DNA of 34,498 nucleotides from Fidelibacterota bacterium. GTDB lineage: Bacteria > Fidelibacterota > Marinisomatia > Marinisomatales > Marinisomataceae. The DNA lies in the NCBI GenBank assembly GCA_017856055.1, contig JAFMFP010000006.1, forward strand, positions 1 to 34,498. Reading direction: 5' to 3'. A program made the translations under genes and the position numbers. The notes beneath the pieces were generated by a model. The model saw nothing but the letters and a program-made list of their open reading frames with translations. It did no database searches and was not told the DNA's origin. Shown one piece after another: positions 1 to 23,410 of this stretch; position 1 is the first letter of the stretch; every line of letters begins with the position of its first letter.

Positions 1-152
1 AGAACTGCAACTGGAGTTAATTGCTCCATTTCAATAAATTGTTTGAAAAGTGTAAATCCAAGACCAGGATCGATGATTAAACATTTTTTATCTTGATAAA
101 CTATATAAGTATTTTCTTCAAGAAGCTCCGAGACAATTCTTTGATAATCCAA
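1..152 (-). CDS. MBL-fold metallohydrolase (glyoxalase II-like), N-terminal fragment, runs off window edge
   Basis: Minus-strand translation from a TTG at 152: LDYQRIVSELLEENTYIVYQDKKCLIIDPGLGFTLFKQFIEMEQLTPVAV, matching the N-terminal 'NxYxV...CLIIDPG' pattern of MBL hydrolases. The metal-binding HxHxDH motif lies outside the window. Confidence 0.6.
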   Translation of the reverse strand, partial: MDYQRIVSELLEENTYIVYQDKKCLIIDPGLGFTLFKQFIEMEQLTPVAV

Positions 153-154
153 CG

Positions 155-1219
155 TTAAATCCTATCATAAAAATATGGGAGCAAACTATTGATTTTATCT
201 TGAAATGAATGCGGGTTTAAGAACCTGATGGTTGCAGCGATTGAGGATAGTAGAGAGTTCCCATCTTGAGGAGTGAAACAAAATCCAGAAATTTGGTTAC
301 CATTCTTAACGTTAATAGTACTTTCAACGATAACAGTTTGGTTAAGTATTCTTCCATAAATACCCTGATCTCTACCAAATGAAAAGATTTCATTAGCTGA
401 CTTATGCTCAGTAAGTGCAATCCTATCATTATCTTTCAATAGTTTTATTACTTTTTCTTTTGAAGTAGGTTCCTTGACTTTTAAGTCAAACCAAACAACA
501 TGCATGTATTGACTATTTACGATCATAGCAGAAGAAAATAAATTAAGATCTAAATTTAATGTTGCAAAAAGTGCATTAGCATCTTTAGCATGATGAGTGC
601 CAAATACTTCATCTTTATGATCATTGACTGTTGGAGATGGTGCGAAACCTGAAGATTGACTAATATCACTACTTCTTCTAATACAGACAAATTTACCTTC
701 TGCTAAATTATCCGGACCATCAGATAATGCTAAAGTATTAACAAGACATGCAATGTTATGTGTATTACATGAAACAATCTGTAAAAACTGATCCTCAGAT
801 GATATAACATGATCATTAATACCTCTTGCATATTTTTTACCAAACCCATCTTCACTTCCTTGAGCTAAAAAGCCCTTCACTCTATCTTTATATGGTAAAT
901 AAAATTCTTGCTTATTTTTATTACCAAATCCCTTCGGAGTACAATCAATAACTACTGAAGCTCGAGAAATTGCTTCTTCCATTGTAAAATCAGGTTCAAG
1001 TCCAATTGCTTTGAATTCTTCAACTTTTTCTTTTAAAACTGAAAGCCTAGCACCTTTACGAATCAAATTTTTTATTTTAGGAGCATCAACCGTTAAAGGG
1101 GTATGCTTATGGAATGTTACTTCATCAATACCAAGTTTACTTTTTAAATCACACATAATTCCTATTAATGGCTCACCAATCGTACCAGTACCAACAATAT
1201 GAACAACTTTTCTATCCAT
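155..1219 (-). CDS. Type II (archaeal-type) glyceraldehyde-3-phosphate dehydrogenase-like protein
   Basis: N-terminal Rossmann GTGTIG; 'ASVVIDCTPKGFGNKNKQ..', 'FLAQGSED', catalytic 'IVSCNT', 'HH' and C-terminal 'QTVIVES' blocks align colinearly with archaeal GAPDH. SD AAGGAG lies just upstream; ATG at 1219 (the track start at 1222 is TTG). Confidence 0.8.
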   Translation of the reverse strand: MDRKVVHIVGTGTIGEPLIGIMCDLKSKLGIDEVTFHKHTPLTVDAPKIKNLIRKGARLSVLKEKVEEFKAIGLEPDFTMEEAISRASVVIDCTPKGFGNKNKQEFYLPYKDRVKGFLAQGSEDGFGKKYARGINDHVISSEDQFLQIVSCNTHNIACLVNTLALSDGPDNLAEGKFVCIRRSSDISQSSGFAPSPTVNDHKDEVFGTHHAKDANALFATLNLDLNLFSSAMIVNSQYMHVVWFDLKVKEPTSKEKVIKLLKDNDRIALTEHKSANEIFSFGRDQGIYGRILNQTVIVESTINVKNGNQISGFCFTPQDGNSLLSSIAATIRFLNPHSFQDKINSLLPYFYDRI

Positions 1220-1330: not shown

Positions 1331-1969
1331 TTATAACTTAGATTCTTTTAAAGTTAAAATTTTGTTCTTCAAATTTACCATTGTAATCATTAAAAAAGTG
1401 AACACAAATAATGAAAAAAGAAAGTAATTTAGTATTCCAGAGGGCTGTTTATTCATCTCAACTTGAGGATGCAACTGAATTTCTTCTGCCCAAAAAGTTA
1501 CAGAGGTAAAAATGATTGGGATATCAATAAAGGCGATAATTCCTAAAATACTACAGATTAAAGCAGCTCTTTGTCTATAAAGACCTATATTTCTTAAAAT
1601 AAAATAACCTACATAGATTATAAAAAGCAGTAACGTAGTAATTAGTCTTGGTTCCCAAACCCAAGGTTTACCCCAGATAGGAGTAGCCCAAATAGGTCCT
1701 GTTACCAGCACTAATGCAATAAAGAGTGTCCCTACCTCTGCAGATGCTAAAGCAAAACGGTCATATTTTAAATCTTTTTTAAATAGATACAGAACACTTG
1801 AAATCATCACAAAAAAATAAGCCAAGAATCCGGACCAAGCAGCTGGAACATGAAGATAGAATATTTTTTGTGCCCATTCTTGTTCGGGAACCATCGGAGT
1901 AAAGAAAATTATGGCAATTAGGTTTATAAAAACTAAAAAAATGGTAATTATAAATAATGCTAAATTCAT
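1331..1969 (-). CDS. ccmC: Heme exporter protein CcmC
   Basis: 212 aa, about six TM segments; tryptophan-rich 'WGKPWVWEPRLITTLLLF' motif of the CcmC/CcsA family; sits in a ccm cluster. Confidence 0.9.
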   Translation of the reverse strand: MNLALFIITIFLVFINLIAIIFFTPMVPEQEWAQKIFYLHVPAAWSGFLAYFFVMISSVLYLFKKDLKYDRFALASAEVGTLFIALVLVTGPIWATPIWGKPWVWEPRLITTLLLFIIYVGYFILRNIGLYRQRAALICSILGIIAFIDIPIIFTSVTFWAEEIQLHPQVEMNKQPSGILNYFLFSLFVFTFLMITMVNLKNKILTLKESKL

Positions 1970-2629
1970 CTATTTCTTAATTAATGTACTAAAAAATTGA
2001 ACGCCCAATATAACCGAAATTAAACTGTAACTCAATAAAATCATAATGGAAGGTAAGTTGCTAATATTATCATCAATATATGTATTTGTAAAAATTCTAG
2101 AACTATTAATTAGAATTGGAGTCAGCAGAGGAAAAAAAATTAACGGGAAAAGAAAGCTCTTAATTCTTTCTGAAGAAGTAATTAAATAAATAATAATTGC
2201 CAATGAAATTATTGAGATATTAGAAATTAAAAATAAAGGGAAAAGTATTTTTAAGTCACTTATTGAAATCATAGGATTTAATAAAGAATAGAAAAGAAAA
2301 ATTAAAAATTCGATAATCAATAGCACAAATGTGAACACTAAAAGCTTACTTAAAAAAAATAAATGTCCATAAACAGGAGAAGAATAAATTAGATCATATA
2401 TTCCGAATTCTTTTTCTCTAGCAAAGGAATTCTCCACTACTTTTATTGATGAAAAAGAAATAATTATCCAAAAAAAACTACTTAAAATATTTGGATCATT
2501 TAAGAAAGTTAATGGCATAGAAAAAAATAGAAGTATCAATGAAGATAAAGCAAAAAAACTTATGTAAAATAAATTGAATGATGACTTTACCTCAATAATT
2601 ATTTCATTTTTGATTAAACTAAATAACAT
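1970..2629 (-). CDS. ccmB: Heme exporter protein CcmB (ABC permease)
   Basis: 219 aa polytopic protein with 'FAREKEFGIYDLIYSSPVYGHLFFLSKLL', typical of CcmB; overlaps ccmA. Confidence 0.82.
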   Translation of the reverse strand: MLFSLIKNEIIIEVKSSFNLFYISFFALSSLILLFFSMPLTFLNDPNILSSFFWIIISFSSIKVVENSFAREKEFGIYDLIYSSPVYGHLFFLSKLLVFTFVLLIIEFLIFLFYSLLNPMISISDLKILFPLFLISNISIISLAIIIYLITSSERIKSFLFPLIFFPLLTPILINSSRIFTNTYIDDNISNLPSIMILLSYSLISVILGVQFFSTLIKK

Positions 2630-3224
2630 TTTGTATTGACCCAGATTGAATTAGATATGTTGCATCTGCAATTTCTTTAAATAAATGATGATTGTGCGTT
2701 GAAAAAATCACAGTTTTATTTTCAGATTTAAATTTTTTGATTAATTCTTTTTGAGTACAGATTGAATCATCATCTAAATTTGAAAAAGGTTCATCCAGCA
2801 ATAAATAATCCCAATTTGTGCATAGAGCCATTAACATTTTATTTTTTTGAAGATTCCCTCTGGATAAATTTTTTAATTGTTTATCTAATTGTTCATTTAG
2901 ATTGAGCTGTTTCACATACCTATTAAATACTTCACAGTTAAAATCTGTTTCGTAAAGTGAAGTGATGATTTTAAGATTATCTTTAATAGTTAAATTTCCA
3001 ACTACATTATCCTTATCGCTTAAAAAAAATGTCCTAAATCCATTATTATTAATTTTTCCTCTATCAATTTCAGTAGTTCTGGAAAGACAATTAAGCAGGG
3101 TTGATTTACCAGATCCATTACTACCTATAATCATTATTATTTTACCTAAAGGAAAGTCTATAGAAAGATTTTTTAGAACATGATTTGAATCAAAGGATTT
3201 GTAAAGTTTCTTTGCAGATAACAT
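2619..3224 (-). CDS. ccmA: Heme exporter ABC ATPase CcmA
   Basis: Walker A GSNGSGKST, signature LSRGNLQK, Walker B YLLLDEPFSNLD; 201 aa; located between ccmF and ccmB. Confidence 0.88.
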   Translation of the reverse strand: MLSAKKLYKSFDSNHVLKNLSIDFPLGKIIMIIGSNGSGKSTLLNCLSRTTEIDRGKINNNGFRTFFLSDKDNVVGNLTIKDNLKIITSLYETDFNCEVFNRYVKQLNLNEQLDKQLKNLSRGNLQKNKMLMALCTNWDYLLLDEPFSNLDDDSICTQKELIKKFKSENKTVIFSTHNHHLFKEIADATYLIQSGSIQNVI

Positions 3225-3230
3225 ATGATA

Positions 3231-3314
3231 TCAACTTTTAATTAGAGGTCCAAAAACATATAATAAAACTAAAATATAACAGAAGAAGATAAAAAGCTGG
3301 TTAAATATTTCCAT
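3231..3314 (-). CDS. Putative 27-aa single-TM peptide between ccmF and ccmA, not in the ORF track
   Basis: MEIFNQLFIFFCYILVLLYVFGPLIKS; SD-like GGGAGTAGGA immediately upstream of the ATG; overlaps the ccmF 3' end by 14 nt and ends 6 nt before ccmA. Confidence 0.45.
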   Translation of the reverse strand: MEIFNQLFIFFCYILVLLYVFGPLIKS

Positions 3315-5280
3315 TCCTACTCCCGGTTGGCCAGAATGCTAAAATTGCACCCAAAATCATTATTATGCTTCCAATCCAAACCCAAGAAACTAATGGGTTT
3401 ATCATAATTTTAAAAAAACCTACATTTTTTTCTGCATCATAGGATGAAAAAATAGAATAAATATCTTTACTTAAATTTGAATTAATATCTAATTCACTAT
3501 GAGGTTGTCTTTGTTCCGGATCTGAATTCCAGTAAAAGTAGACTCTTTTCTCTGGATAAAGCTTACCAATAAAATTATTAGATGAAGAAATAATATCAAA
3601 ATCACTAATAAATGCGAAGTGGTTTCCTCTAGCTTCGCTGGTAATATCATTTAGTTTAAAAATGTAATTGGAAAAATAAATTTCTTCTCCAGGCTTTAGA
3701 CTAAATTCTTTCTCAGTTTCAAATGCTTTACCTATAAAACCGACAAACATCAAAGTCAAACCAATGTGAACTATGTAACCTCCTGAACGATGTCGATTCC
3801 TAACAAAAGTACTTAGTATTGAATGAAAAAAAGAGGATGACTTTCTATGCTTAAGAAAGATTCTATAAAACTCAGTAACTATGGCAGTCGAAGTAAAAAC
3901 AATACCAATTAAGGTTAAAAAAACATAAAAATCAAATTTATTAAAATATAAGATTAGATAGGCAGAGCCGAATGCAAAAGAAAATAAAGTTGGAGTTTTA
4001 AATTTCTTGACAATTGATTCTCTAGGTGTATTTCCCCAAGAAAGTAATGGACCCATTCCCATAAGAATCAATAATAAAATTCCTAAAGGAATATTTAAAG
4101 CGTTGAAATAAGATTGCCCTATATGAATTTTTTCATCATTCCATGCTTCAGAAAGAATTGGGAAAAGTGTTCCCCAAATTATTGTAAAACACATTATAAC
4201 GAGTAAAAAATTATTGATTAGAAATCCACCTTCCCTTGATTTAATGGATTCTATTTTATCATTTACAATTAATTTTGATTTATTAACAAAATACGTCCCT
4301 AGACTGATTAAAAATAACAGGATTAAAAACGCAAAAAATATTGGCCCTAAAGATTCTGCAGTAAAAGAATGGACTGAAGAAATTATACCGCTTCTTGTAA
4401 TGAATGTTCCTAGTATAACTAAAATAAATGAACCAGAAGCGAGAAAGAAATTCCAAGATTTTAAAATTCCTTTCCTCTCCTGAATGATAATAGTGTGGAT
4501 AAATGCTGTCAAAAGCAACCAAGGCATTAACGAAGAATTTTCAACTGGGTCCCAAGCCCAATACCCTCCCCAGCCAAGCTCATTATAAGCCCAATATCCT
4601 CCAAGAATTATTCCTGCTGTTAAAAAAGTCCACGTAAATAATGACCATTTTCTTATAGAATAGATCCATTTATTTGAGAGCTCGTTAGACATTAATCCGG
4701 CAATAGCCATAACAAAAATTATTGTCGTACCAATAAAGCCAAAATAGAGTGTAGGAGGATGAATAGCCATAGTCACATTTTGAAGAAGAGGATTTAATCC
4801 GTTACCATTGGAAACAATTATATCTGAGCTTACAGGTTCAAAAGGGTTGGCTATAAAATTATTTAACATAAGAAAAAATGCTAAAATTACATTAAGCATT
4901 AAAAAAGAAATATTTTTGATTGATGGTATTTTTTTTAAAGTACACAGTATAAAAAATATGGCATACAATGAAGTGATAGATGACCAAAATAATAGCGATC
5001 CTGCTTGCCCCGCCCATAAGGCAGTCATTTTAAAGAATAAAGGAGTTTCATAACTCGAATACTGTGCAACATATTGTAAATTAAAATTACTAACTAACAA
5101 TTCATTCAAAAGACAAAGATTCGAAAAAATAATACAAAAACTTTGTGATAACAAACTTCTCTCAATGACCTGTAAGTATCTCTGATCATTAGAATGTTTA
5201 TAAAGGACAAAAAGAAAAAAATTAAATAATGATAAAATTCCTGCTAGACTCAGGATTAAGCTTCCAATTTGTGAAACCAT
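3301..5280 (-). CDS. ccmF: Cytochrome c-type biogenesis protein CcmF
   Basis: 659 aa; WGGYWAWDPVENSSLMPWL heme-handling motif; multi-TM. Confidence 0.95.
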   Translation of the reverse strand: MVSQIGSLILSLAGILSLFNFFLFVLYKHSNDQRYLQVIERSLLSQSFCIIFSNLCLLNELLVSNFNLQYVAQYSSYETPLFFKMTALWAGQAGSLLFWSSITSLYAIFFILCTLKKIPSIKNISFLMLNVILAFFLMLNNFIANPFEPVSSDIIVSNGNGLNPLLQNVTMAIHPPTLYFGFIGTTIIFVMAIAGLMSNELSNKWIYSIRKWSLFTWTFLTAGIILGGYWAYNELGWGGYWAWDPVENSSLMPWLLLTAFIHTIIIQERKGILKSWNFFLASGSFILVILGTFITRSGIISSVHSFTAESLGPIFFAFLILLFLISLGTYFVNKSKLIVNDKIESIKSREGGFLINNFLLVIMCFTIIWGTLFPILSEAWNDEKIHIGQSYFNALNIPLGILLLILMGMGPLLSWGNTPRESIVKKFKTPTLFSFAFGSAYLILYFNKFDFYVFLTLIGIVFTSTAIVTEFYRIFLKHRKSSSFFHSILSTFVRNRHRSGGYIVHIGLTLMFVGFIGKAFETEKEFSLKPGEEIYFSNYIFKLNDITSEARGNHFAFISDFDIISSSNNFIGKLYPEKRVYFYWNSDPEQRQPHSELDINSNLSKDIYSIFSSYDAEKNVGFFKIMINPLVSWVWIGSIIMILGAILAFWPTGSRNGNI

Positions 5281-5687
5281 TATATTGAACTTTTATTTTT
5301 GAGATCACCCTCGTATCTAGATGCACATTTTGTCTGTAGATCTTCAGCAATGATTCTGTTATCGCTATAGGAACCAGTTACTACAACTTCTGCGTCATCT
5401 TTGAATAAATCAGGACGAATTCCATTATATTCAACTAGAACTGTATTTTCTGCATCATAAACATAGAATGATACCTCAAGTAAATTATCTGGATTAATTT
5501 TAATACTTTCAGGTAATATTCTACCTCCTAATTTCATTTTATTTATAGGTGAGACATTATCAGATAATTCAGAAACTGTAAAATATTTAACTGATGACAA
5601 ATTTCTTTCATCATATTGTGTTAAATAGATTGTCCATGATATAACGAGCATCATAGATAGTATAAGTGTTATATAAAACTTATTCAT
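5280..5687 (-). CDS. ccmE: Cytochrome c maturation heme chaperone CcmE, Cys-variant (CxxxY)
   Basis: 135 aa; N-terminal TM, OB-fold-like core (VLVEYNGIRPDLFKDDAEVVVTGSYSDNRIIAEDLQTKC), C-terminal KCASRYE in place of H-x3-Y. Confidence 0.88.
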   Translation of the reverse strand: MNKFYITLILSMMLVISWTIYLTQYDERNLSSVKYFTVSELSDNVSPINKMKLGGRILPESIKINPDNLLEVSFYVYDAENTVLVEYNGIRPDLFKDDAEVVVTGSYSDNRIIAEDLQTKCASRYEGDLKNKSSI

Positions 5688-7270
5688 TAAAAACTAAAGG
5701 ATTCTTCCCATTCTCCATAAACTGATTTCATTAAGTCAACAATCTCACCAAGGGTTCCACCATGGTCAGCAACATCAATAATATAATTAACTAAATTTTC
5801 ATTTTCTATACAGGCCTTTTTTAAAAGATCTAACTTTTCCTGAACAGCAGAATTATTTCTGCTATTTCTTATTGAATTTATTTTTTTTATCTGATCTTTT
5901 TCGGCTGCATGAGAAATCTTCAGAATTTCAATATCAATCTTCTCATCTTCTTCAACAAATTCATTAACTCCAACAATAATTCTTCTCTTGGAATCTACTA
6001 GTTCTTGAAATTCAGAAGCAGATTCAGAAATTTTTTTCTGAAAATATCCATCCTCAACAGCCTCAACAGTACCACCCATCTGATTAATTTCATCAAAATA
6101 TTTTAAAGCTTCTTCTTCAATTTCATCAGTTAGCTGTTCCACATACCATGATCCACCTAAAGGATCAGCTACATTTGGTACTCCCGTCTCAAATGCAAGT
6201 ATTTGTTGAGTTCTTAAAGCAATTTTTGCAGCTTTTTCTGACGGAAGAGCTAAAGTTTCATCAAGTGAATTGGTGTGTAAGGAATTTGTACCTCCTAAAA
6301 CTGCAGACATGGCTTCATAAGCGGTTCTTATTATATTATTTTCTGGCTGTTGAGCAGTTAATGAACATCCAGCAGTCTGTGTGTGGAACTTCAACTTCAA
6401 AGAATTTTCATTCTTTGCACCATATTCGCTTCTAAGCTTATTTGCCCAAATTCTTCTTGCAGCTCTATATTTTGCAATTTCTTCAAAAAAATCTTGATGA
6501 GCATTGAAAAAGAATGATAGCCTATGGGCAAAACTATCTATATCTAACCCTCTTTGAATGCAAGAATCAATGTAAGTAAAACCATTGTTCAGTGTAAATG
6601 CAAGTTCTTGGCCAGCAGTGGAGCCAGCTTCACGAATATGATATCCGCTTATTGAAACAGGATTATATAAAGGCATATTATTTGAACAGTATTCAATTAT
6701 ATCAACAACTAACTTAATTGATGGATTAGGAGGAAATATCCACTCTTTTTGTGCAATATATTCTTTCAAAATATCATTTTGCAGTGTCCCTCTTAATTTT
6801 GAAATATCTATTCCCCTTCTTTTTGCTAATGCCACATAAAAAGCAAAAAGAATAATAGCTGGACCATTAATTGTTTGAGAAACAGAAATTTTTTCTAAAT
6901 CTATTCCATCAAATAAAATTTCCATGTCATTAAGAGATGCAACACTTACCCCACAAACACCCACCTCCCCTACAGATAATTCATGGTCAGGGTCATATCC
7001 CATCAATGTAGGCATATCATATGCTACTGAAAGTCCAGTTTGTCCATTTTTTAATAAGTACTTATATCTTTGATTTGTTTCTTCTGGAGTACTAAACCCT
7101 GAAAATTGTCTCATAGTCCAAATTTTTCCACGATACATATTAGAATGGATTCCTCGCGTGTAAGGAAATTGCCCAGGTTTTAAAGAGTCTTTATTTTCAG
7201 AATAGAATTCCTTGAGTGTTTTACCACTTAGACTATTAAAGTTCTTTTCGTTATCTTTATTTGTACTCAT
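5687..7270 (-). CDS. Adenosylcobalamin-dependent acyl-CoA mutase, large/catalytic subunit (isobutyryl-CoA mutase-like; would be annotated methylmalonyl-CoA mutase)
   Basis: 527 aa TIM-barrel catalytic domain without a C-terminal B12 domain; TRGIHSNMYRGKIWTMRQFSGFSTPEETN, QNDILKEYIAQKEWIFPP, SISGYHIREAGST, HTNSLDETLALP. Phe and Gln occur at the positions of MCM Tyr89/Arg207. Confidence 0.9.
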   Translation of the reverse strand: MSTNKDNEKNFNSLSGKTLKEFYSENKDSLKPGQFPYTRGIHSNMYRGKIWTMRQFSGFSTPEETNQRYKYLLKNGQTGLSVAYDMPTLMGYDPDHELSVGEVGVCGVSVASLNDMEILFDGIDLEKISVSQTINGPAIILFAFYVALAKRRGIDISKLRGTLQNDILKEYIAQKEWIFPPNPSIKLVVDIIEYCSNNMPLYNPVSISGYHIREAGSTAGQELAFTLNNGFTYIDSCIQRGLDIDSFAHRLSFFFNAHQDFFEEIAKYRAARRIWANKLRSEYGAKNENSLKLKFHTQTAGCSLTAQQPENNIIRTAYEAMSAVLGGTNSLHTNSLDETLALPSEKAAKIALRTQQILAFETGVPNVADPLGGSWYVEQLTDEIEEEALKYFDEINQMGGTVEAVEDGYFQKKISESASEFQELVDSKRRIIVGVNEFVEEDEKIDIEILKISHAAEKDQIKKINSIRNSRNNSAVQEKLDLLKKACIENENLVNYIIDVADHGGTLGEIVDLMKSVYGEWEESFSF

Positions 7271-9111
7271 TGTATAATAAAACTCTCAATTTTTGATTTT
7301 ATTGAATCAGTGTCTAGGCCAACTTTTTCTAATAGTTCATCTCTAGTACCATGATCTACAAAGCTATTTGGTAGGCCTAAAGTTAGTATATCATTATTAG
7401 AATTGCTCGAAGAAAAATGCGATAATATGCTTTCGCAAAAACCTCCATCTAAATTACCTTCTTCAATTGTTATGATTTTTCTAAATTTCTTTTTAGCAAT
7501 TTTTAAATACTCTTCATCAAGCGGTTTAATAAATCTACAATTAACAACCTCAATGTTAATTCCTTTTATCTGAAATTCTTTCGCGATATCAACACTTTTA
7601 TAAACCATAGACCCTACGGCTAATATTACAAAATCTTCACCTTTCATTAATACTTCCCAAGAACCTTTAGGAATTAAAATTGGAGTATCTGAGGTATAAA
7701 TAATTGAATTATCTTTGGGATAACGAATACTAATAGGACCCTCATTATATGTTGTAGCAGAATACAATAGATTCTTCAATTCATTTCCATCTTTTGGAGA
7801 TGCAACTGTCATACCAGGGATACACTTTAAATAACTGATATCTAATACGCCATGATGAGTTGCCCCATCTTCACCAACAAGTCCTGATCGATCTAAACAG
7901 AAAATAACTGATAACTTTTGTAGTGCAATATCATGAATAATTTGATCAAATGCTCTTTGTAAAAAAGTTGAATAAATTGCAACAATAGGAATTTTTCCAC
8001 TAGCTGCTAAAGCACCAGCAAAAGTTACCGCATGGGCTTCAGCAATTCCTACATCAAAAAATCTATCTGGATAATTTTCGGCAAATTCTACTAAACCAGT
8101 TCCTTCTTTCATGGCCGCTGTGATTGCAATAATATCATTATTGTCTTTTGCTAATCTTAAAATCTCCTTCCCAAATACATTTTGATAAATGATAGAAGGA
8201 CTTGAAGATTTAGTTTCTTTTTGCTTCACTCCATGAAATTTAACAGGATCTTTTTCAGCATAGTCAATTCCTTTACCCTTCTTTGTAATAGCGTGCAAAA
8301 CAACTGGAGAGTTAATGTTCTTAATTTTTTTGAAAACTGATACTAATTCTTCAACATTATGACCATCTACTGGACCGAAATATCTAAACCCTAACTCTTC
8401 AAAAATTGTAACTGGAAGAAAAAAACTTTTTATACTTTTTTCCGCTTTATAAAAAAAAGATTGAAGAAGTTTTGGAAATTTTGTTAATAGTTTTGTAAAT
8501 CTAGATCTAACAACGTTGTAATACCTATTAGTTGAAATTTTTAATAAATAATTTCTAAATGCTCCAACATTAGGGCTAATTGACATATCATTATCATTTA
8601 AAACTAGTAAGAATTGTTTCTTTTGATGTCCAATATTATTCATTGCTTCAAAAGCTAAACCTCCACTCATTGCACCATCGCCAATTACACTAACAACCTT
8701 AAAATTCCCACTATTTAACTCTCTAGCTTCAACAAAACCAATTCCAGCTGAAATAGATGTAGAAGCATGTCCAGCTCCAAAAAAATCATGTATGCTTTCA
8801 GATCTCTTTAAAAATCCACTCAAACCATTCATTCGACGTATAGTAGAAAAATCATTAAAACGACCAGTTAATATCTTATGTGCATAAGCTTGATGACCTG
8901 TATCCCAAATAATTTTGTCTTCAGGAGAATTAAAAACGTAATGTAATGCAGTAGTAATTTCAATTGCTCCTAAAGTTGGAGCTAAGTGTCCACCAATTTC
9001 TGTGATTGTGTCAGTGATATAATGTCTTAATTCATCACAGATTTTAGGTAATTCATTTTCTGAATAATTTTTTAAATCTTTTGGCGAATTAATTCTATTT
9101 AAATATTTCAT
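7267..9111 (-). CDS. dxs: 1-deoxy-D-xylulose-5-phosphate synthase
   Basis: 614 aa; GHLAPTLGAIEITTALHYVF, GDGAMSGGLAFEAMNN(I)GH, DRSGLVGEDGATHHGVLDI, HGTRDELLE. ATGA overlap with the mutase gene. Confidence 0.97.
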   Translation of the reverse strand: MKYLNRINSPKDLKNYSENELPKICDELRHYITDTITEIGGHLAPTLGAIEITTALHYVFNSPEDKIIWDTGHQAYAHKILTGRFNDFSTIRRMNGLSGFLKRSESIHDFFGAGHASTSISAGIGFVEARELNSGNFKVVSVIGDGAMSGGLAFEAMNNIGHQKKQFLLVLNDNDMSISPNVGAFRNYLLKISTNRYYNVVRSRFTKLLTKFPKLLQSFFYKAEKSIKSFFLPVTIFEELGFRYFGPVDGHNVEELVSVFKKIKNINSPVVLHAITKKGKGIDYAEKDPVKFHGVKQKETKSSSPSIIYQNVFGKEILRLAKDNNDIIAITAAMKEGTGLVEFAENYPDRFFDVGIAEAHAVTFAGALAASGKIPIVAIYSTFLQRAFDQIIHDIALQKLSVIFCLDRSGLVGEDGATHHGVLDISYLKCIPGMTVASPKDGNELKNLLYSATTYNEGPISIRYPKDNSIIYTSDTPILIPKGSWEVLMKGEDFVILAVGSMVYKSVDIAKEFQIKGINIEVVNCRFIKPLDEEYLKIAKKKFRKIITIEEGNLDGGFCESILSHFSSSNSNNDILTLGLPNSFVDHGTRDELLEKVGLDTDSIKSKIESFIIQ

Positions 9112-9114
9112 TTT

Positions 9115-9711
9115 TTAACTAAAACAAATTTCATGGATAAATGTTTCTTGAAAAATTTCAGGGTGAAAAGTTATACCAATATGCTTTCCGGACTTTATTC
9201 CAACTACTTCATTTTGAAAAAAGGCAAATGGCTCAGTATCTTCTCCATATGAAATAATTTTAGGCGCTCTAATAAAAGAGCCTTGAATGAGTCTTTCATC
9301 AAATGAATCATTTTTTAACTGAATACTAGCTGAAAAGGAATTGATCTGTCTACCATATGCATTTCTTTCAACCAGTACATCAAGAATATTTAGAGATTTC
9401 ACAATCTTATCATCTTCTATTTTAGACATTAAGATTAAACCTGCACAGGTTCCTAGTATAGGAAATGAGCGAGAAAATGATTTAATTTCTCTAGCAAAAT
9501 TTTTCTCTCTATTAAGAAGATTATAGATTGTAGTTGATTCACCTCCTGGAATAATTAACCCTTCTATTTGGTCAAGCTCTTTAGAAAATTTTATTTCTTT
9601 AGAAGTCTTACCTAATTGATTTAATATTTCCAAATGAGATTGAAAATTCCCCTGTAATGCTAAAACGCCAATCAATTTAATCTCCTCGATTAGAAAACTT
9701 TTCATCCTCAC
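9115..9711 (-). CDS. pdxT: Pyridoxal 5'-phosphate synthase glutaminase subunit PdxT
   Basis: [30 protein letters not shown] (catalytic Cys), FHPEI; directly downstream of pdxS. Start may be internal to the ORF call. Confidence 0.93.
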
Positions 9712-10552
9712 TTAGATCGCTCATTAAAATTCCTTTCATAGCGTCTTTTAAATTATAGGAAGCTTTTAATACTTCTTCAGAATTTTTATAATGAGTAACC
9801 GCATGTACAATAGATTTAGCTCTTTCTAGCGGATCAGAGCTCTTAAAAATACCAGAACCTACAAATACAGTTTCTGCACCCAATTGCATCATTAATGATG
9901 CATCAGCAGGAGTAGCGATTCCTCCAGCTGCAAAATTGGGTACTGGTAATTTTTTATTTTGTAAGACATATTTAACTAAATCAGTAGGTACTCTAAATTC
10001 TGAAGCTTTTTCATCCAAATTATTTTCTGTTAATTCAAAAATTTGTTTATTAATCATATTCATATGTCTTACAGCTTCAACAATGTTACCACTTCCAGCT
10101 TCGCCTTTAGTTCTAATCATTGCAGCGCCTTCATCAATCCTTCTTAAAGCTTCTCCCAAATTTCGAGCACCACAAACAAAGGGTATTTTAAAAGGATGTT
10201 TTAAAATATGAGCTTCTTCATCTGCTATTGTTAAAACTTCACTTTCATCAATAAAATCTACCTCAAGTGCTTCTAAAACTTGCGCTTCAGCAAAATGTCC
10301 TATTCTACATTTAGCCATCACTGGTATTGAAACATTTTCTTGAATTTCTTTTATCATTTGAGGATTACTCATTCTAGCAACACCACCGTCGGCCCTGATA
10401 TCAGATGGAATTCTTTCTAAAGCCATAACGGATACAGCTCCAGATTCCTCTGCAATCTTGGCTTGTTCAACATTAGTAACATCCATAATAACGCCCCCCT
10501 TTAACATTTCAGCGAGAGCTACTTTTTCTCTAAATGTATCTTTATTAATCAT
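9677..10552 (-). CDS. pdxS: Pyridoxal 5'-phosphate synthase lyase subunit PdxS
   Basis: 291 aa; [48 protein letters not shown], highly conserved PdxS/SNZ sequence. Confidence 0.98.
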
Positions 10553-11414: not shown

Positions 11415-12425
11415 TTACTTCTTAGTTTGATTTATGTAGTTAGATATTAAATTTAAAACACTTTTTTTAACCTCTGAGAAATCTCCTTCAATAAGAGCAG
11501 CGGAAGCATATGGATGACCACCTCCACCCATCTGTTTAGCTAATTCATCTACCTTATACAATCCTTTTGAACGTAGACTAATTCTCACCTTACCTTTTAG
11601 ATCATATAACATTAAAGATATTTCTACGCCATTAATAGATCTGAAAAAATCTGTAAAACCCTCGAAGTCTTCATTGCTTCCTCCAACTTCTTTTATCATA
11701 TCTTGATTTACGCCAAACCATACTAATTGATCATTGCAGTCAAATTTTAGATTCTGAATCACATTTCCAAGTAACTTTATTCGACTTTTTGAGGAGTTTT
11801 CATAGATATTCTGATAAATTTTTGTCGTATTAATTCCGAAGTTTATTGATTCTTTGGCAATTAAATGACTTAATCCAGTAGTATTATTATGTTTAAATGA
11901 ACCTGTATCAGTTAAAACTGCAATATAGATTCCTTCAAGGATCTCTTTTGATAAATAGCCATTAAACTCGTTTATTACTAACTCATAAATTATTTCCCCA
12001 ACAGAAGAGGATTTTGTATTAATAAAGTTGTGATCAAATTTCTTCAAATCTATAACATTGTGATGATCGATATTCAGCAGTTCAATATTTTCAATTTCGT
12101 CTAAAAGTAAAGCTATATCACCCAATCTATAATAATCTCCAATATCTAGAATAATTCCTAAATCAGAATTTTTAATAAAGGCAGCAGTTTCTGAATTATG
12201 TTCATGAAAGATATTTTCTTGATTTAAAAAATTATACATTTTAGGCAATGGTGAATGATTAATAATCATACAGTCTTTTCCTAATTGAGTGAGCAGATGG
12301 TAAAATGCATATGATGATCCTAAACTATCTCCATCCGGATTAATGTGAGAAGAAATGAAAATTTTATTACTTTTTAATATAAGAGAACTAATTGATTTAA
12401 AATCCATAGAAGTTATCTCTTCCAA
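11415..12425 (-). CDS. DHH/DHHA1 family phosphoesterase (NrnA-like oligoribonuclease/pAp phosphatase)
   Basis: SSHINPDGDSLGSSYAFYHLL, NIDHHNV, GGGHPYASA motifs. Confidence 0.88.
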   Translation of the reverse strand: MEEITSMDFKSISSLILKSNKIFISSHINPDGDSLGSSYAFYHLLTQLGKDCMIINHSPLPKMYNFLNQENIFHEHNSETAAFIKNSDLGIILDIGDYYRLGDIALLLDEIENIELLNIDHHNVIDLKKFDHNFINTKSSSVGEIIYELVINEFNGYLSKEILEGIYIAVLTDTGSFKHNNTTGLSHLIAKESINFGINTTKIYQNIYENSSKSRIKLLGNVIQNLKFDCNDQLVWFGVNQDMIKEVGGSNEDFEGFTDFFRSINGVEISLMLYDLKGKVRISLRSKGLYKVDELAKQMGGGGHPYASAALIEGDFSEVKKSVLNLISNYINQTKK

Positions 12426-12952
12426 ATATTTTCATTAATTCCTTTTTGATGATTATAGTGACGAGAAAGAACAAAGAAATAGTCAGATAATCTATTAAGA
12501 TATTTTAGCATATTATTGTCATCATTGATTGTTTCTAAAAAAAGTGAAACAAGACTTCTTTCTGCTCGACGGGTTATAGTTCGCAAAATATGTAGGAAAG
12601 AAGAAAATTGATCTCCTCCAGGAAGTATAAATTCTCTCAATGGACTTAATTCTGAATTATAGTATTCAATTCTATTGTCGAGTACAATAACTTTTTCGTG
12701 ACTAAATCTATTTTCGTTATCAAATAAAGAAATTAAACCACCCATATCAAAAAGATCGTTTTGAATTGATTTAAGCTCATCAATTATGTTAGGTTCATTG
12801 GTTAAAGAGATTGCAAAACCAAGATGACTATTAAGTTCATCTATTTCACCTAAAGTTTTAATTATAAGACTATCCTTAGATACAACATCACCCTTAGCAA
12901 GATTTGTTTTACCATAATCTCCATTACGGGTTGTAACTTTAGTTATTCTCAT
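12413..12952 (-). CDS. PduO-type ATP:cob(I)alamin adenosyltransferase
   Basis: MRITKVTTRNGDYGKTNLAKGD... LGEIDELNSHLGF ... RRAERSLV... YLNRLSDYFFVLSR. ATG at 12952 gives an ATGA overlap with nhaD; the longer track start (13024) is probably spurious. Confidence 0.93.
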   Translation of the reverse strand: MRITKVTTRNGDYGKTNLAKGDVVSKDSLIIKTLGEIDELNSHLGFAISLTNEPNIIDELKSIQNDLFDMGGLISLFDNENRFSHEKVIVLDNRIEYYNSELSPLREFILPGGDQFSSFLHILRTITRRAERSLVSLFLETINDDNNMLKYLNRLSDYFFVLSRHYNHQKGINENIWKR

Positions 12953-14265
12953 AAAGTAATGTTCCACATTAATAAATGGACAACAATGCTTAAAACATAT
13001 CCAAGAAAAATGACCCCAGTCCATCTAAGATGACTTGAAAATGTATATAACCCTTTTGCTTGACCCATTAATGCCACTCCAGGAGCGGAGCCAATTGATA
13101 ATAGACTTCCACCTACACCTGTAGCTAAGGTCACTAATAACCATTGACCAAGATCCATTGCATCTTGGGAATGCATCTGTAAAACTGAAAACATAACAGG
13201 AATATTATCAATGACAGCTGAAATGATACCGGTTAAAATATTAGAAATGGTGAAACCATATCCTTCATATAAGTAATTATTTAATAAAGTTAAATATCCC
13301 ATTTCAGCAAGACCTGCTACACAAAGAATAATTCCATAGAAAAATAACAAAGTATCCCATTCTGCTTGAGCAATTTGTTTAAATACTCCAAAAGGAGCAT
13401 CAGACCCATCTCTCTGCACTTCAGTTGATTTTGCATATGTGGTTTTTAAGTAATATCCATAAAGTTGAAGTAGACTAAAACCAAACATCATACCGAAAAC
13501 AGGAGGAAGATGTAAAATATTTTCGAAAGAAACTGCTAAAAAAATGGTAATTAAGAATAAAAAGATAATTGGAATAGCACCCCTTTTAAGTTTTACAGGA
13601 GTATTCTCAACATCTGCTGAAGAACCATGAATAAAGAAGCTCATAATAGTAGCAGGAACTATATAGTTGACAAGAGATGGTAAAAATAACCAAAAAAACT
13701 GAGTAAACTCTACATGCCCTGACTGCCACACCATTAAAGTAGTAATATCTCCAAATGGACTAAAGGCACCTCCAGCATTTGCTGCAACAACAATGTTTAC
13801 GCAACTGATACTTACAAAATTTCTATTTCCAACTCCTACAGCCATCACAACTGCACACATAGTTAAAGCAGTTGTCAAATTATCTGCAATCGGAGACAAA
13901 AAGAAAGAAATAGTTCCAGTAATCCAAAACAGCTTTCTGTAAGAGTAATTTTGCTGAAGTAAGATTGATCTTAATTTTTGAAAAACATTTCTCTCAGTCA
14001 TAGAGTTGATATAAGTCATCGCAACTAATAAAAATAACATAAGTTGAGAGAACTCTTCAAAAGCATGCATAATTGATTCTTCAACATGCTCAGCATGTCC
14101 ATGCATTCTGGCATACCATGCCAGGGAAGCCCAAATAATTCCTGCTGCAAATAATACCGGTTTGGATTTTCTTAAATGAGTTACTTCCTCAGTCATTACA
14201 AAAGCGTATGCAATCGTAAAAATAACTAAAGCAAAGATACCCAGGGGATGTGATACTAAATTCAT
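12949..14265 (-). CDS. nhaD: Na+/H+ antiporter NhaD
   Basis: 438 aa polytopic; SPIADNLTTALTMCAVVMAVG, NAGGAFSPFGDITTLMVW, DNIPVMFSVLQ, GSLLSIGSAPGVALMG. Confidence 0.92.
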   Translation of the reverse strand: MNLVSHPLGIFALVIFTIAYAFVMTEEVTHLRKSKPVLFAAGIIWASLAWYARMHGHAEHVEESIMHAFEEFSQLMLFLLVAMTYINSMTERNVFQKLRSILLQQNYSYRKLFWITGTISFFLSPIADNLTTALTMCAVVMAVGVGNRNFVSISCVNIVVAANAGGAFSPFGDITTLMVWQSGHVEFTQFFWLFLPSLVNYIVPATIMSFFIHGSSADVENTPVKLKRGAIPIIFLFLITIFLAVSFENILHLPPVFGMMFGFSLLQLYGYYLKTTYAKSTEVQRDGSDAPFGVFKQIAQAEWDTLLFFYGIILCVAGLAEMGYLTLLNNYLYEGYGFTISNILTGIISAVIDNIPVMFSVLQMHSQDAMDLGQWLLVTLATGVGGSLLSIGSAPGVALMGQAKGLYTFSSHLRWTGVIFLGYVLSIVVHLLMWNITL

Positions 14266-14331: not shown

Positions 14332-14487
14332 ATGGAATATCTTATAGTAATTTTGATATTAATTTTTTGTTTCTTTATAATGAATATTGGTTTGATTTTT
14401 AAAAATAGACCGCTTAAAAAAGGCTGCGGTTCTTCTCCAGATGGATGTGAAATATGTGGAGGAGATATTTCTAAATGCGATAGTTAA
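14332..14487 (+). CDS. nqrM: NqrM-like (DUF539) Na+-NQR maturation protein, 51 aa, not in the ORF track
   Basis: MEYLIVILILIFCFFIMNIGLIFKNRPLKKGCGSSPDGCEICGGDISKCDS: N-terminal TM helix plus four clustered Cys (CX6CX2CX6C); adjacent to apbE and the nqr operon; stop codons of this gene and apbE overlap at TTAA. Confidence 0.75.
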   Translation: MEYLIVILILIFCFFIMNIGLIFKNRPLKKGCGSSPDGCEICGGDISKCDS

Positions 14488-15503
14488 TTATTTTTTATTA
14501 AAGAACCAGTAAAAGACTTTTTATAGGTTCCATCTTTAGTTAAAAAAATTAGCATAGAATTAATTGATTTTGATTCTAAGAAGTCCTCTAAATCTTCTGA
14601 ATTGCTCATAGCAAAAACCATCGTTGCTAATGCATCTGCATCCATGCATGATTTCTCACTCAATATGGAAACTGAACCTAAGTTAGCAGTAATTGGGTAT
14701 CCTGTTTTAGGGTTGATTCCATGATGAAAAAAGGACTGAAATTCATCAATGAAATAGTTTCTATAATTTCCTGAAGTAGCAATTGATAAATTATTTAAAG
14801 AAATAACTTCTTCAATATCATTTTGTGAACTTTGTAAACTGGGGGAAACAATTCCTATTTTCCAGTCTTTTTTGTAAGATTTAGTACGAATTTCTCCACC
14901 AATCTCAATCATTATATCTTTATAACTCAAAGACTCTATTAACCTATCTACAGCATATCCTTTTGCAATAGAACTTAAATCAATTTGTAGTTTGGGGTGT
15001 TTTTTTCTAATTCTATTCCCATCTATTTCAAGCAAATCTTGCCCCACAAATTCTAACTTTTCATCTATCATTTCTTGAGATGGTCTATTTAAATAAACTT
15101 CCGGACCAAATCCCCATAAATTTACTAATGGCATCACAGTTATATCGTACAAACCATTTGATAATTGATGATACTCAAAGGAGGCCTTCACTACCTCAGC
15201 AAATTCTGGAGAGATACCAAACCATAAAGTATCAGAAAATGAATTAAAATTAGAAATTTCACTATCAACTATATACGTTGACATCTGTCTATTAATTTCT
15301 CCTAAAATTTTATCAATTTTATTTTGATTGAATTTCTTTATAGAAAATTTCTTCGGAATATATTTTATTGAGTATGTTGTACCCATGGTTTGTCCAGATA
15401 AAATAATCTCTTTGTTGAAAAAAAATTGATTGATTGTAAAAAGTGCAGCAGCAATAAAAAGTATGTACGAAGAGCTTTTTCTAACCGAAGTCATCATAAG
15501 CAA
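14484..15503 (-). CDS. apbE: FAD:protein FMN transferase ApbE
   Basis: SGQTMGTTYSIKY, DLSSIAKGYAVDRL, HHGINPKTGYP, DADALATMVFAM; N-terminal membrane anchor; directly downstream of nqrF. Confidence 0.94.
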   Translation of the reverse strand: MLMMTSVRKSSSYILFIAAALFTINQFFFNKEIILSGQTMGTTYSIKYIPKKFSIKKFNQNKIDKILGEINRQMSTYIVDSEISNFNSFSDTLWFGISPEFAEVVKASFEYHQLSNGLYDITVMPLVNLWGFGPEVYLNRPSQEMIDEKLEFVGQDLLEIDGNRIRKKHPKLQIDLSSIAKGYAVDRLIESLSYKDIMIEIGGEIRTKSYKKDWKIGIVSPSLQSSQNDIEEVISLNNLSIATSGNYRNYFIDEFQSFFHHGINPKTGYPITANLGSVSILSEKSCMDADALATMVFAMSNSEDLEDFLESKSINSMLIFLTKDGTYKKSFTGSLIKNN

Positions 15504-16710
15504 TCATATCTTCTTCAACTCCTAAATCCCATAACATTTTTTGTACAGCACTTATCATCATAGGTGGACCACACAAATAATACTCACACTCTGTTGGATC
15601 TTCATGGTTTTTTAAATATAAATCAAGCGCTACCTGATGAATAAATCCAATAGGACCTTCCCAATTATCATTTGGAAGAGGGTCTGACAGTGCAACTTGA
15701 TATTTAAAATTAGAGAATTGTTTCTCAAGATCTTTAAATTCTTCATCATAGAACATCTCCTTAACAGAACGTGCACCGTACCAAAAAGAAACTTTTCTTT
15801 TTGTATTTTCAGTTTTGAGAAGATGAAATATATGAGATCGTAAAGGAGCCATACCAGCACCACCACCAATATAGACCATTTCTCTTTCAGTGTCTTTGAT
15901 ATGAAAATCACCATAAGGGCCAGAAACAGTTATTTTGTCTCCAGGTTTTAAATTAAATACATAGGATGAGGCAATTCCAGGTGGAACGCTTGGCATATTT
16001 GGTGGAGGAGATGCAATTCTGATATTGAGCATAATCATATTTCCTTCAGCAGGATGGTTTGCCATAGAATATGCCCTGAAAATAGGATTTTTATTTTCTG
16101 CAGTATATTGCCATACATCAAATTTATCCCAATCATCTCTATAGATTTCTTCAATTTCAAAATTTTTATATTCGATATTGTTATATGCTGGTACATCAAT
16201 CTGAATATAGCCCCCAGATTCAAAATGGATAGGGTCATCTTTTGGAAGTTCAATGACTAATTCTTTAATAAAAGTGGCCACATTATTGTTTGATTTAACG
16301 GTAGCATCCCACTTTCGAATACTAAAAATTTCATCTGGAACTTTAATTTTCATGTCATTTCTGATTTTCACCTGACATCCTAATCTCCAGTAATCTTTTT
16401 GATCTTTTCTACTTATATATGCTTGTTCAGTAGGAAGAATATCACCTCCGCCTTCAACTACTTGACACTTACATTGAGCGCAGGTTCCTTGGCCTCCACA
16501 TGCTGAAGGCAAATATACATTTTGAGATGCAAGCGCTGACAGTACTGTACCACCTGTTTGAACTTTCAAAGATTTTGAAGCATCATCATTAATTACTAAA
16601 GAAACTTCACCTTGAGGAAGTAATAGATTACCAACAAAATTAAGTAATAGCACTAAAAGAATGATAACTGCAGTAAAAACCAAGACTCCAACTAATACTT
16701 CAAAAATCAT
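15481..16710 (-). CDS. nqrF: Na+-translocating NADH:quinone reductase subunit F
   Basis: N-terminal TM, [2Fe-2S] CGGQGTCAQCKCQV, FAD motif RAYSMANHP, YIGGGAGMAPLRSHI, YLCGPPMM. Confidence 0.98.
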   Translation of the reverse strand: MIFEVLVGVLVFTAVIILLVLLLNFVGNLLLPQGEVSLVINDDASKSLKVQTGGTVLSALASQNVYLPSACGGQGTCAQCKCQVVEGGGDILPTEQAYISRKDQKDYWRLGCQVKIRNDMKIKVPDEIFSIRKWDATVKSNNNVATFIKELVIELPKDDPIHFESGGYIQIDVPAYNNIEYKNFEIEEIYRDDWDKFDVWQYTAENKNPIFRAYSMANHPAEGNMIMLNIRIASPPPNMPSVPPGIASSYVFNLKPGDKITVSGPYGDFHIKDTEREMVYIGGGAGMAPLRSHIFHLLKTENTKRKVSFWYGARSVKEMFYDEEFKDLEKQFSNFKYQVALSDPLPNDNWEGPIGFIHQVALDLYLKNHEDPTECEYYLCGPPMMISAVQKMLWDLGVEEDMIAYDDFG

Positions 16711-17327
16711 AAATCAATTCCTGAAAATGCCATAAAAGCCATTGATAATAATCCAGTTAATAACATTGCCATCGCAACCCCCCTCAGCCTAGGAGGTATA
16801 TTAGAGTATCTCAGTCTATATCTAACTGATGCGAGTGCAACAATAGCTAAAAGAAATCCTACACCTGAACCAAATCCATACACGATTGTCTCTGATAATA
16901 AGTACTCTCGTTCTACCATAAACAGAGATCCACCTAGTATTGAACAGTTTACAGCAATCAGAGGCAAGAAAATTCCTAAACTGTTGTATAAAGATTGAGA
17001 AAATTTTTCCATAAAAATTTCAACCAGCTGAACCATGGCAGCAATAACTGAAATGAAAACAATTAGTTTTAAAAAATCCAAATTTACTTCAGATAGATTT
17101 GGATGAATCCATGACAATGCTCCATCTTTTAACAGAAATTCCCATAAATACCAATTTATTGGAGCTGTTATAGTGAGCACTACCACCACAGCCATTCCTA
17201 TTCCAACTGAAGCATCTATTTTCTTAGAAATGGCTAAGAATGAACAGAGGCCAAGAAAGTAGGCTAATACAATATTTTCAATAAATACTGCTTTAGTAAA
17301 AATACTCAAATAATGTTCTAGACCCAT
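16707..17327 (-). CDS. nqrE: Na+-NQR subunit E
   Basis: 206 aa; YFLGLCSFLAISKK, NCSILGGSLF with conserved TM Cys; in nqr order. Confidence 0.97.
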   Translation of the reverse strand: MGLEHYLSIFTKAVFIENIVLAYFLGLCSFLAISKKIDASVGIGMAVVVVLTITAPINWYLWEFLLKDGALSWIHPNLSEVNLDFLKLIVFISVIAAMVQLVEIFMEKFSQSLYNSLGIFLPLIAVNCSILGGSLFMVEREYLLSETIVYGFGSGVGFLLAIVALASVRYRLRYSNIPPRLRGVAMAMLLTGLLSMAFMAFSGIDL

Positions 17328-17981
17328 CTAAGCCTCCTCTTCAATTCCAATTAATTCTCTTTGAAACCAGATGACTAATCCTAGAATTATAAATGCTCCA
17401 GGAGAAAGCACTAATAGTCCAATATTTTCATATCCTGCAGCATACCAAGATTCCGGAATTGAGAATAAAACATATCCTGCTCCACCATCTGGTAAGGTAA
17501 TTGTACCAGAACCAAAAAGTTCTCTGAAAAAAGAAACAATGATTATAATCATTCCGTATCCTAAACCATTACCAATGCCATCGAGAAACGCTTTTGAAGG
17601 ACCATGTTTTAAAGCAAATGCTTCTGCACGACCCATTACAATGCAGTTTGTAATAATTAAACCAACAAAAACAGATAACTGCTTACTCATATCATACATA
17701 TAGGCTTGTAATAACTGATCAACAACTGATACTAGCGATGCGATAACAGAAAGCATAATAACTATTCGAACTCGATTTGGAATAAAATTTCGAATCATTG
17801 ATAGAATTACATTTGAAGAAGCTAAAACAAAAATTACAGCTAAGCTCATTATGATAGCTTGATCTACTCTAATTGTTACAGCTAGGGCTGAACAGATACC
17901 TAATACTTGCAAAGAAATTGGATTATTGACATTTATAGGATCGGAAATGATTTTTTTTGATTCTGAATTAAATAGTTCCAC
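17328..17981 (-). CDS. nqrD: Na+-NQR subunit D
   Basis: 217 aa; [47 protein letters not shown]. Confidence 0.97.
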
Positions 17982-18681
17982 TTACTTTAACCTTATTTAA
18001 ATATTCTTCATATCTCTTTAAATCTTCAGCAATAAAAACTGAAACACCTCTACCTGTAACAGTTGCTCCAGAAATACCATCTACTTGATGGATAGAACTA
18101 GAATTTTCTGGATTAACCTTTCCTTTGACTACCTCAATACCAATAATTTCTTTTTGGATATCTCTAATTTTTTTTCCTTTAAAGTTGTTTGTAAACCAAC
18201 CTTTTTCAACTTCTCCACCCAACCCTGGAGTTTCACCATGTTTGTAAAATTGTATTCCTAAAACTGTGTCAGTATCAGGTTTTAAAGCAATATAGCCATA
18301 AATAGTGGACCAAAGTCCTTTCCCAGCTACAGGAAGAGCAATTCCAGAAATATCACCATCAACAATCTTGAGATAAACAGGAAGTTGGGATTGATTTTTT
18401 TCAATATCAACATCTTCTATAACACAATCAATTTTGTTTCCATCTTTATCTACACAAAAAGCTTGAACATTTTGAGAAAATATTTTCTCTACTAAATCAT
18501 TTGTCCATGGGTTGTTAGGGTCTTCTTCATAATCTAAGGACCTTAAAATATTTTTCTTAACATCAGCTTTTAAATTATAATCTTGCAGATCTCTCACATT
18601 AATTTTAGTAAAGGACAAAATAGTCCCTAAAATAGCTGTTACTATAAAAACAAACCCTAAAGTATAAGTATTACTATGCAT
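17968..18681 (-). CDS. nqrC: Na+-NQR subunit C
   Basis: 237 aa; covalent-FMN motif [24 protein letters not shown]. Confidence 0.97.
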
Positions 18682-22468: not shown

Positions 22469-22498
22469 ATTTTTTGTAATTTGTTAAATTTATCGCTA

Positions 22499-23410
22499 AT
22501 GAAGTTACTAAATAAATTAATAATTACAATTATTCCCTTTCTTCCCAAATCTTTTGTTCGGTTAGTTGCTTCTCCATACATAGCTGGAATCACTAATGAT
22601 GAAATGATAGATAGTGTTCTCAAGCTCAACAATCAAGGATACGATGTTGCAATTGATATTCTGGGAGAACATGTTAAAACAGAAATTGAAGCTGAGAGGA
22701 TTACAAATCATTATAAAGAAATTTATCAATTGATAAATCAAAATAATCTTTCAGCAAATATCTCAATCAAACTAACACATATTGGACAAGATTTGGGATA
22801 CGATGTTGTAAAAAAAAATCTATTTGAGCTATTAAAAGCTGCGAAAGAAACAAATAATTTTCTTCGAATTGATATGGAAAATTCACCCTATACCAGTGAA
22901 ACTATACAATTATATAAAGAATGTATTAAAATTTATGATAAAGTTGGGATAGTGCTTCAAGCTTATATGTTAAGATCAGAAAATGATTTAGAAATTTTAT
23001 CCGACGAAAATTTTAATGTAAGAATTTGTAAAGGAATTTATGTTGAAGATGAATCAATTGTTTTGAAAGATTATCATAAAATAAGAAAAAACTATATTTC
23101 TCTAGTAAAAAAGGGATTAAAAAACAATTCTTACATTGCCATTGCTACACATGATGAAGAAATAATTAATCATCTTTCATCATGGATTTTTGAAAATAAT
23201 ATTCCAAAAAATCAATTTGAATTCCAATCATTGCATGGAGTCCCAATTGAAAAGAAACTTAAAGAGCTTCTGAATCATAATTTTAAAGTTAGGATATATC
23301 TTCCCTTTGGAGATAATTGGTATGATTATTCCATCAGGAGATTAAAAGAAAACCCTAAGATGGCTGGATACATTATAAAGAATTTATTTAAAAAAATTTT
23401 CCGAATTTAA
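22499..23410 (+). CDS. Proline dehydrogenase (monofunctional PRODH)
   Basis: C-terminal RIYLPFGDNWYDYSIRRLKENP matches the PRODH RxPxGxxWYxYxxRRLxENP signature. ATG at 22499 is preferred over the TTG at 22481. Confidence 0.9.
   Translation: MKLLNKLIITIIPFLPKSFVRLVASPYIAGITNDEMIDSVLKLNNQGYDVAIDILGEHVKTEIEAERITNHYKEIYQLINQNNLSANISIKLTHIGQDLGYDVVKKNLFELLKAAKETNNFLRIDMENSPYTSETIQLYKECIKIYDKVGIVLQAYMLRSENDLEILSDENFNVRICKGIYVEDESIVLKDYHKIRKNYISLVKKGLKNNSYIAIATHDEEIINHLSSWIFENNIPKNQFEFQSLHGVPIEKKLKELLNHNFKVRIYLPFGDNWYDYSIRRLKENPKMAGYIIKNLFKKIFRI

Follow-up and report, generated by a model that had tools for sequence, protein, structure and literature searches.

The window, by which we mean the whole stretch of 34,498 nucleotides that was analyzed, is one entire contig (G000:C30) of a 0.84-Mb assembly that is 95% complete, comprises 59 contigs and has Candidatus Marinimicrobia (SAR406, Fidelibacterota) as its nearest named relatives. 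The genes and active-site features that concern us are collected in Table 1. A preliminary description had placed a GAPDH homologue at positions 155-1219 without naming a strand; these coordinates hold, and the open reading frame is on the minus strand. A plus-strand reading of the same interval was rejected, as it contains no open reading frame and its translation is riddled with stops. The motifs quoted in that description, VVIDCTPKGFGNKN, IVSCNTHNIAC and THHAKD, are all found in the protein. Comparison of the gene with its near relatives gave dN/dS values of ~0.08-0.12; it is intact, under purifying selection and functional by selection.

Table 1. Genes of the GAPDH-like locus and active-site features of the GAPDH-like protein.
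Feature	Position	Strand	Remarks
CDS of type II-GAPDH-like protein	155..1219	minus	354 aa; ATG at 1219, last codon 158, stop 157-155
Shine-Dalgarno-like AGGAGA	1229-1224	minus	just 5' of the GAPDH-like start; read from the sequence
Active-site loop I148-V-S-C151-N-T-H154-N155 (archaeal VVSCNTTG/A)	755..778	minus	C151 = catalytic Cys139/140
R181-R182, aligned with archaeal R166-R167	674..679	minus	invariant
H209-H210 (archaeal SHH motif)	590..595	minus	H209 in 67/67 and H210 in 66/67 core members
H240, at the position of the catalytic His219 in archaeal type II GAPDHs	500..502	minus	invariant
Downstream MBL-fold hydrolase gene, start	1..151	minus	cut by contig end; conserved next gene; named by reading
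ccmC, ccmB, ccmA-like ABC ATPase, ccmF, ccmE (cytochrome c maturation)	1331..5687	minus	upstream of the GAPDH-like gene
Methylmalonyl-CoA mutase catalytic subunit	5687..7270	minus	conserved operon partner
dxs, pdxT-like, pdxS	7267..10552	minus	dxs and pdxS over cut-off; pdxT by reading

The gene order in Marinimicrobia is [ispH-pdxS-pdxT-dxs]-methylmalonyl-CoA mutase-[ccm]-GAPDH-like-[MBL hydrolase]-[metF]-tilS-[hpt]-ftsH-folP, and this operon is conserved in nearly all loci read (neighboring genes were named by reading, save those run against models). In several relatives the ccm genes are missing from this place and the mutase gene directly precedes the GAPDH-like gene. Two products of the operon, Dxs and PdxS, consume glyceraldehyde 3-phosphate. 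The GAPDH-like gene of Holophagaceae follows a glutamate dehydrogenase gene (named by reading) with MeaB nearby, and in Acidimicrobiia-type loci it follows genes for malate synthase, isocitrate lyase and a TPP/Rieske enzyme. The common thread of these neighborhoods points to growth on C2/C3 acids and amino acids, a mode of growth that requires gluconeogenesis. One contig labelled Thaumarchaeota archaeon (L017, PAWD01000039.1) also bears the Marinimicrobia-type operon and is either mislabelled or part of a mixed bin. Elsewhere in the window we recognized, by reading, a PduO-type cobalamin adenosyltransferase (12413-13024) that would serve the B12-dependent mutase, an nqr operon (Na+-translocating NADH:quinone reductase, 14484-21183) with an NhaD-like antiporter near it (12949-14265), and a proline dehydrogenase-like gene (22481-23410) that, together with the P5C dehydrogenase of this genome, suggests proline catabolism.

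The protein had been described as an archaeal-type (type II) GAPDH, and profile, PDB sequence and fold searches bear out that type II GAPDH is its nearest characterized relative. The NCBIfam PRK04207 profile (NF003251) matched it significantly (E=3.5e-30), yet the protein stays below both curated type II cut-offs, with 105.2 bits against 185 for NF003251 and 77.7 bits against 232.9 for TIGR01546. Six other members of its family score 71-92 bits with NF003251 and thus also lie under 185. The GAPDH superfamily C-terminal domain (Pfam PF02800, Gp_dh_C) is marginally above its gathering threshold (24.9 versus 24.4 bits). When the PDB was searched by sequence, the only credible matches were four archaeal type II GAPDHs (best 1.7e-15), and profile-profile comparison with hhalign gave 99.7% (E 1.4e-26) against type II GAPDH versus 38% probability (3e-4) against type I GAPDH (TIGR01534). 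An AlphaFold2 model of the protein (pLDDT 90, pTM 0.90) retrieved archaeal type II GAPDHs at Foldseek ranks 1-6, the best TM values being 0.77-0.82 for four structures, followed by type I GAPDH and E4P dehydrogenase at 0.61-0.73; no other Rossmann dehydrogenase family matched better. Identity to archaeal type II GAPDH is 20-23% over the structural alignment. The similarity of the protein to type II GAPDH far exceeds what chance would produce and marks the two as homologous. Because the nearest profile and fold are type II while the curated cut-offs are missed, we regard it as a relative of type II GAPDH and not as a member by the curated definition. With type I GAPDH (gapA) it has the superfamily and the Cys/His chemistry in common, but the profile-profile and TM values are much weaker, and neither TIGR01534 nor the SNASCTTNC motif assigns it to that type.

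We read the conservation of the active site from an alignment of 67 core members of the family, out of 71 sequences from several phyla in all. Compared with the archaeal type II GAPDHs of M. jannaschii (2yyy), M. fervidus (1cf2), S. solfataricus (1b7g) and P. horikoshii (2czc), the window protein has the same fold and retains GxGxxG, SCNT with the catalytic Cys, the position of catalytic His219, RR..D, HH and the QGxE segment. GxGxxG, C151, R181-R182, D185, H209, D213 and H240 are invariant over the core members and Q120-G121 is also conserved; C151, H240 and the cofactor motif are invariant in all 71 sequences. The preliminary description was right that the SCNT and HH motifs are retained, and the catalytic Cys and His and the RR residues are kept as well. 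Other parts of the archaeal active site are changed. Archaeal CNTT(G/A)xxR becomes CNTHNxxx in the family, with H154 in 67/67 and N155 in 66/67 core members. In the MHxH motif the first His is retained and the second is Leu, Val or Ile family-wide; there is also a Thr to Gln change. The archaeal QGGEK segment is replaced by QGSEDGFGKKYARGIND in the window protein, and the C-terminal QES...PENIDxIRA segment (archaeal QES..PENIDAIRA) is missing, with QDGNS in its place (TPQDGNS in the window protein). In M. jannaschii numbering, the type II invariants T146, R150, T222 and H227 and the PENID..R segment are replaced in the window family, which means that the substrate pocket has been remodelled. 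The family has invariants of its own in R283, R290 and N321, and R132 is nearly invariant.

The loss of the loop Arg, first noted from this one sequence, is confirmed: the position is C in the window protein and C, V, S, A, T or I among the 67 core members, never Arg. The divergent loop is no oddity of one gene, as CNTHN is the signature of a whole bacterial family. As it is clade-wide and kept by selection, the absence of the Arg reflects an old, maintained remodelling and not damage. The part of the lost loop Arg may be taken over by His154, the invariant Arg290 and, in most members, Arg132. In the window protein, strand beta-2 ends with a Lys and no acidic residue, which suggests a preference for NADP(H); the K38/K33 correspondence is seen in one alignment and not in the other, so this cofactor assignment is weak. 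A Marinimicrobia subclade, f26 (L055-L058), has CNAHN or CNAQN in the loop and Tyr in place of H209, and its host genomes have a type I GAPDH; f26 probably represents a further functional shift, apart from the core family. A 409-residue Acidobacteriota homologue (L088, 1680-2906, minus strand) has CNTHAIAR, that is, the His of the family together with the Arg of type II, on a branch too long for placement in the tree.

One genome scan returned 53 loci of 53-90% identity, mostly from Marinimicrobia, the others from Acidobacteria including Holophagaceae, Syntrophobacter, another deltaproteobacterium and Acidimicrobiia. Matches to the GAPDH-like protein were found in 140/175 Marinimicrobia genomes and in 89/396 genomes of Acidobacteriota, about 80 of the latter strongly (about a fifth of the sample). 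Among the weak Acidobacteriota matches, a few (L089-L093) are true type II GAPDHs of bacteria. These canonical enzymes also have a bacterial host, belong to the same superfamily and are matched weakly by the profile of the window family, but they carry the CNTTSIVR motif and exceed the type II cut-off (447 and 452 bits versus 185 for the two proteins scanned). The tree groups them with archaeal type II GAPDHs, outside the window family, which forms a separate 100/100 clade ~8.8 changes per column away from the archaeal and acidobacterial type II proteins. The window gene thus falls outside the type II clade, across a very long branch, and nests among its near Marinimicrobia relatives inside a bacteria-only clade. 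By these comparisons, the window protein belongs to a bacterial sister family of type II GAPDH that lies outside type II itself. The preliminary description had entertained horizontal acquisition. A recent transfer of an archaeal GAPDH would fit with the nearest solved structures being archaeal, but the position of the gene in the tree and the synteny kept in nearly all Marinimicrobia loci read leave this explanation with hardly any credibility, and the tree is best read as vertical inheritance. At one locus (L073, G042:C14), where the genome retains two type I GAPDHs, the GAPDH-like gene is garbled in places and interrupted by three in-frame TGA codons, reflecting either decay or sequencing error.

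Glycolysis and gluconeogenesis share GAPDH as part of their trunk, and type I is the form assumed for bacteria. A GAPDH-I search for a type I gapA in the window's own genome gave no match, and the same search gave 0/14 across genomes of the genus. The GAPDH-like protein is present in 13/14 genomes of this genus, together with PGK (12/14), TPI (12/15) and enolase (11/15); in the window's genome pgk and tpi are adjacent, intact and adjoin a glutamate dehydrogenase gene (L107). PFK was found in 0/15 genomes of the genus, and KDPG aldolase over the model cut-off likewise in 0/15. Without these two enzymes neither of the classical pathways, EMP or ED, leads down from hexose, so that the trunk most likely runs upward; a gluconeogenic role, raised as one possibility at the outset, fits best. 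A type I GAPDH, a GAPN or an unrelated GAPDH might lie in unassembled parts of the genome and make the window protein an accessory. An assembly of 59 contigs at 95% completeness gives some room for this, but type I is missing from all 14 genomes of the genus, some of them assembled in 2-10 contigs, and we consider a hidden enzyme very unlikely. GAPN was rejected as the missing enzyme, as neither of the two ALDHs of the genome is of that type: one is a P5C dehydrogenase (776 bits, over cut-off) and the other an MdlD-like enzyme far under the cut-off of the archaeal NADP-GAPDH (GAPN-type) model (160 versus 780 bits). A role as erythrose-4-phosphate dehydrogenase was also set aside, since PdxS/PdxT in the genome would make that step unnecessary.

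Beyond the genus the picture is mixed. Among 94 genomes of the phylum that are at least 90% complete, 14 have no type I GAPDH and 13 of these 14 have the GAPDH-like protein. Presence of the protein and absence of type I are not significantly associated across genomes (Fisher p=0.29, with genomes that are not independent), and a simple phylum-wide presence/absence association was rejected. Type I GAPDH is also present in the 8 genomes tested outside Marinimicrobia. The majority of bearers outside the genus likewise possess type I, so serving as the only GAPDH does not by itself describe the ancestral role.

Taken together, we believe that the window protein is probably a phosphorylating GAPDH, likely with a preference for NADPH, that works in the gluconeogenic direction and is the only candidate for this step in the genus. 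This reading draws on the type II-like profile, PDB sequence and fold, on the conserved catalytic residues, and on the retention of PGK, TPI and enolase in a genus where no type I was found. Counting against it are the missed cut-offs, the remodelled pocket, a neighborhood that is in part a mixed housekeeping operon, the gene with stops beside two type I copies (L073), and a bacterial type II GAPDH that was inactive when assayed (PMC6543838). The proposed enzyme would catalyze 1,3-bisphosphoglycerate + NAD(P)H <-> glyceraldehyde 3-phosphate + NAD(P)+ + Pi, running chiefly toward G3P by reduction of 1,3-BPG, with Cys151 forming the thio(hemi)acetal/acyl intermediate and His240 acting as the base; we infer both the substrate pair G3P/1,3-BPG and the gluconeogenic flux. 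Small acids and amino acids would thereby supply the cell with sugar. Type I GAPDH would have been lost in the streamlined genus, where the GAPDH-like enzyme would carry the step alone, while relatives with larger genomes have it beside type I, as haloarchaea have gapII beside gapI. Haloarchaea, with gluconeogenic gapII and glycolytic gapI side by side (PMC10817205), offer a precedent for such a pairing. Haloarchaeal GapII is likewise type II-like, gluconeogenic and co-occurring with type I (PMC10817205), but it is a genuine type II enzyme with genetic evidence, whereas in the window's genus the role is deduced and no type I was found.

The remodelled pocket is also what a GAPDH-fold dehydrogenase would show had it been neofunctionalised for another phosphorylated or CoA-linked aldehyde, keeping Cys and His and rebuilding the phosphate pocket; a semialdehyde from methylmalonyl-CoA or glyoxylate metabolism is one example of such a substrate. 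The family-wide changes of the loop (Thr to His, Arg to C/V/S), of the second His (to Leu/Val/Ile) and of Thr to Gln would agree with it, as would methylmalonyl-CoA mutase, MeaB and isocitrate lyase/malate synthase as neighbors, the co-occurrence of type I GAPDH in most bearers and the further divergence of f26 (CNAHN, H209 to Tyr). However, all 67 core members retain RR, H209 and the catalytic pair, the reduced genus keeps the protein with PGK, TPI and enolase and no other GAPDH found, and the neighborhoods have no single alternative pathway in common. We regard such a change of substrate as rather unlikely, though clearly the strongest competitor to a gluconeogenic GAPDH. A pseudoenzyme, or a moonlighting or regulatory protein without dehydrogenase activity, has a precedent in the inactive type II GAPDH of Pseudoclostridium (PMC6543838) and in a pseudoenzyme-like type I paralogue known from the same lineages, but it is hard to reconcile with a cofactor motif, catalytic Cys and His that are invariant in 71 sequences, a dN/dS of ~0.1 and retention of the gene in genomes of 0.7-1.0 Mb; we consider it quite improbable. 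With slightly less than even confidence, we propose that the CNTHN proteins are a third, bacteria-only family of phosphorylating GAPDH-fold dehydrogenases apart from types I and II, and the only GAPDH of several Marinimicrobia lineages, above all of this genus. Such a family would represent either a 'type III' gluconeogenic GAPDH or a new related reaction in C2/C3-acid assimilation.

Our literature search on Marinimicrobia GAPDH and on type II active-site residues found nothing direct. In the one reported assay of a bacterial type II GAPDH, the protein, CDQ83_07070 of Pseudoclostridium thermosuccinogenes, was inactive in the oxidative direction; it is not conserved among close relatives, and the same study states that functional evidence for a bacterial type II GAPDH is lacking (PMC6543838). 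Compared by description alone, that protein is also of type II in a bacterium, whereas the window family is conserved across a phylum. We thus have a bacterial family that is phylum-wide, extends to about a fifth of the sampled Acidobacteriota and, in streamlined marine bacteria, provides the only GAPDH that we see. The role proposed here, if true, would fill a hole in SAR406 metabolic models at a step that annotation by curated cut-offs would miss, and the question of a functional type II-like GAPDH in bacteria becomes testable with one gene.

Finally, we note that a type I GAPDH paralogue that has no catalytic Cys adjoins the normal gapA at several loci, namely L101, L102 and L113-L115 in Marinimicrobia and L110 and L112 of the Acidimicrobiia type. 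In this paralogue SNASCTT is changed to SxSSSTT, SAASATT or LGSNTSN, and it appears to be a conserved, pseudoenzyme-like partner. By hand count, uncorrected for kinship, the GAPDH-like protein is present in 98/104 phylum genomes with at least two type I matches versus 11/36 with one.
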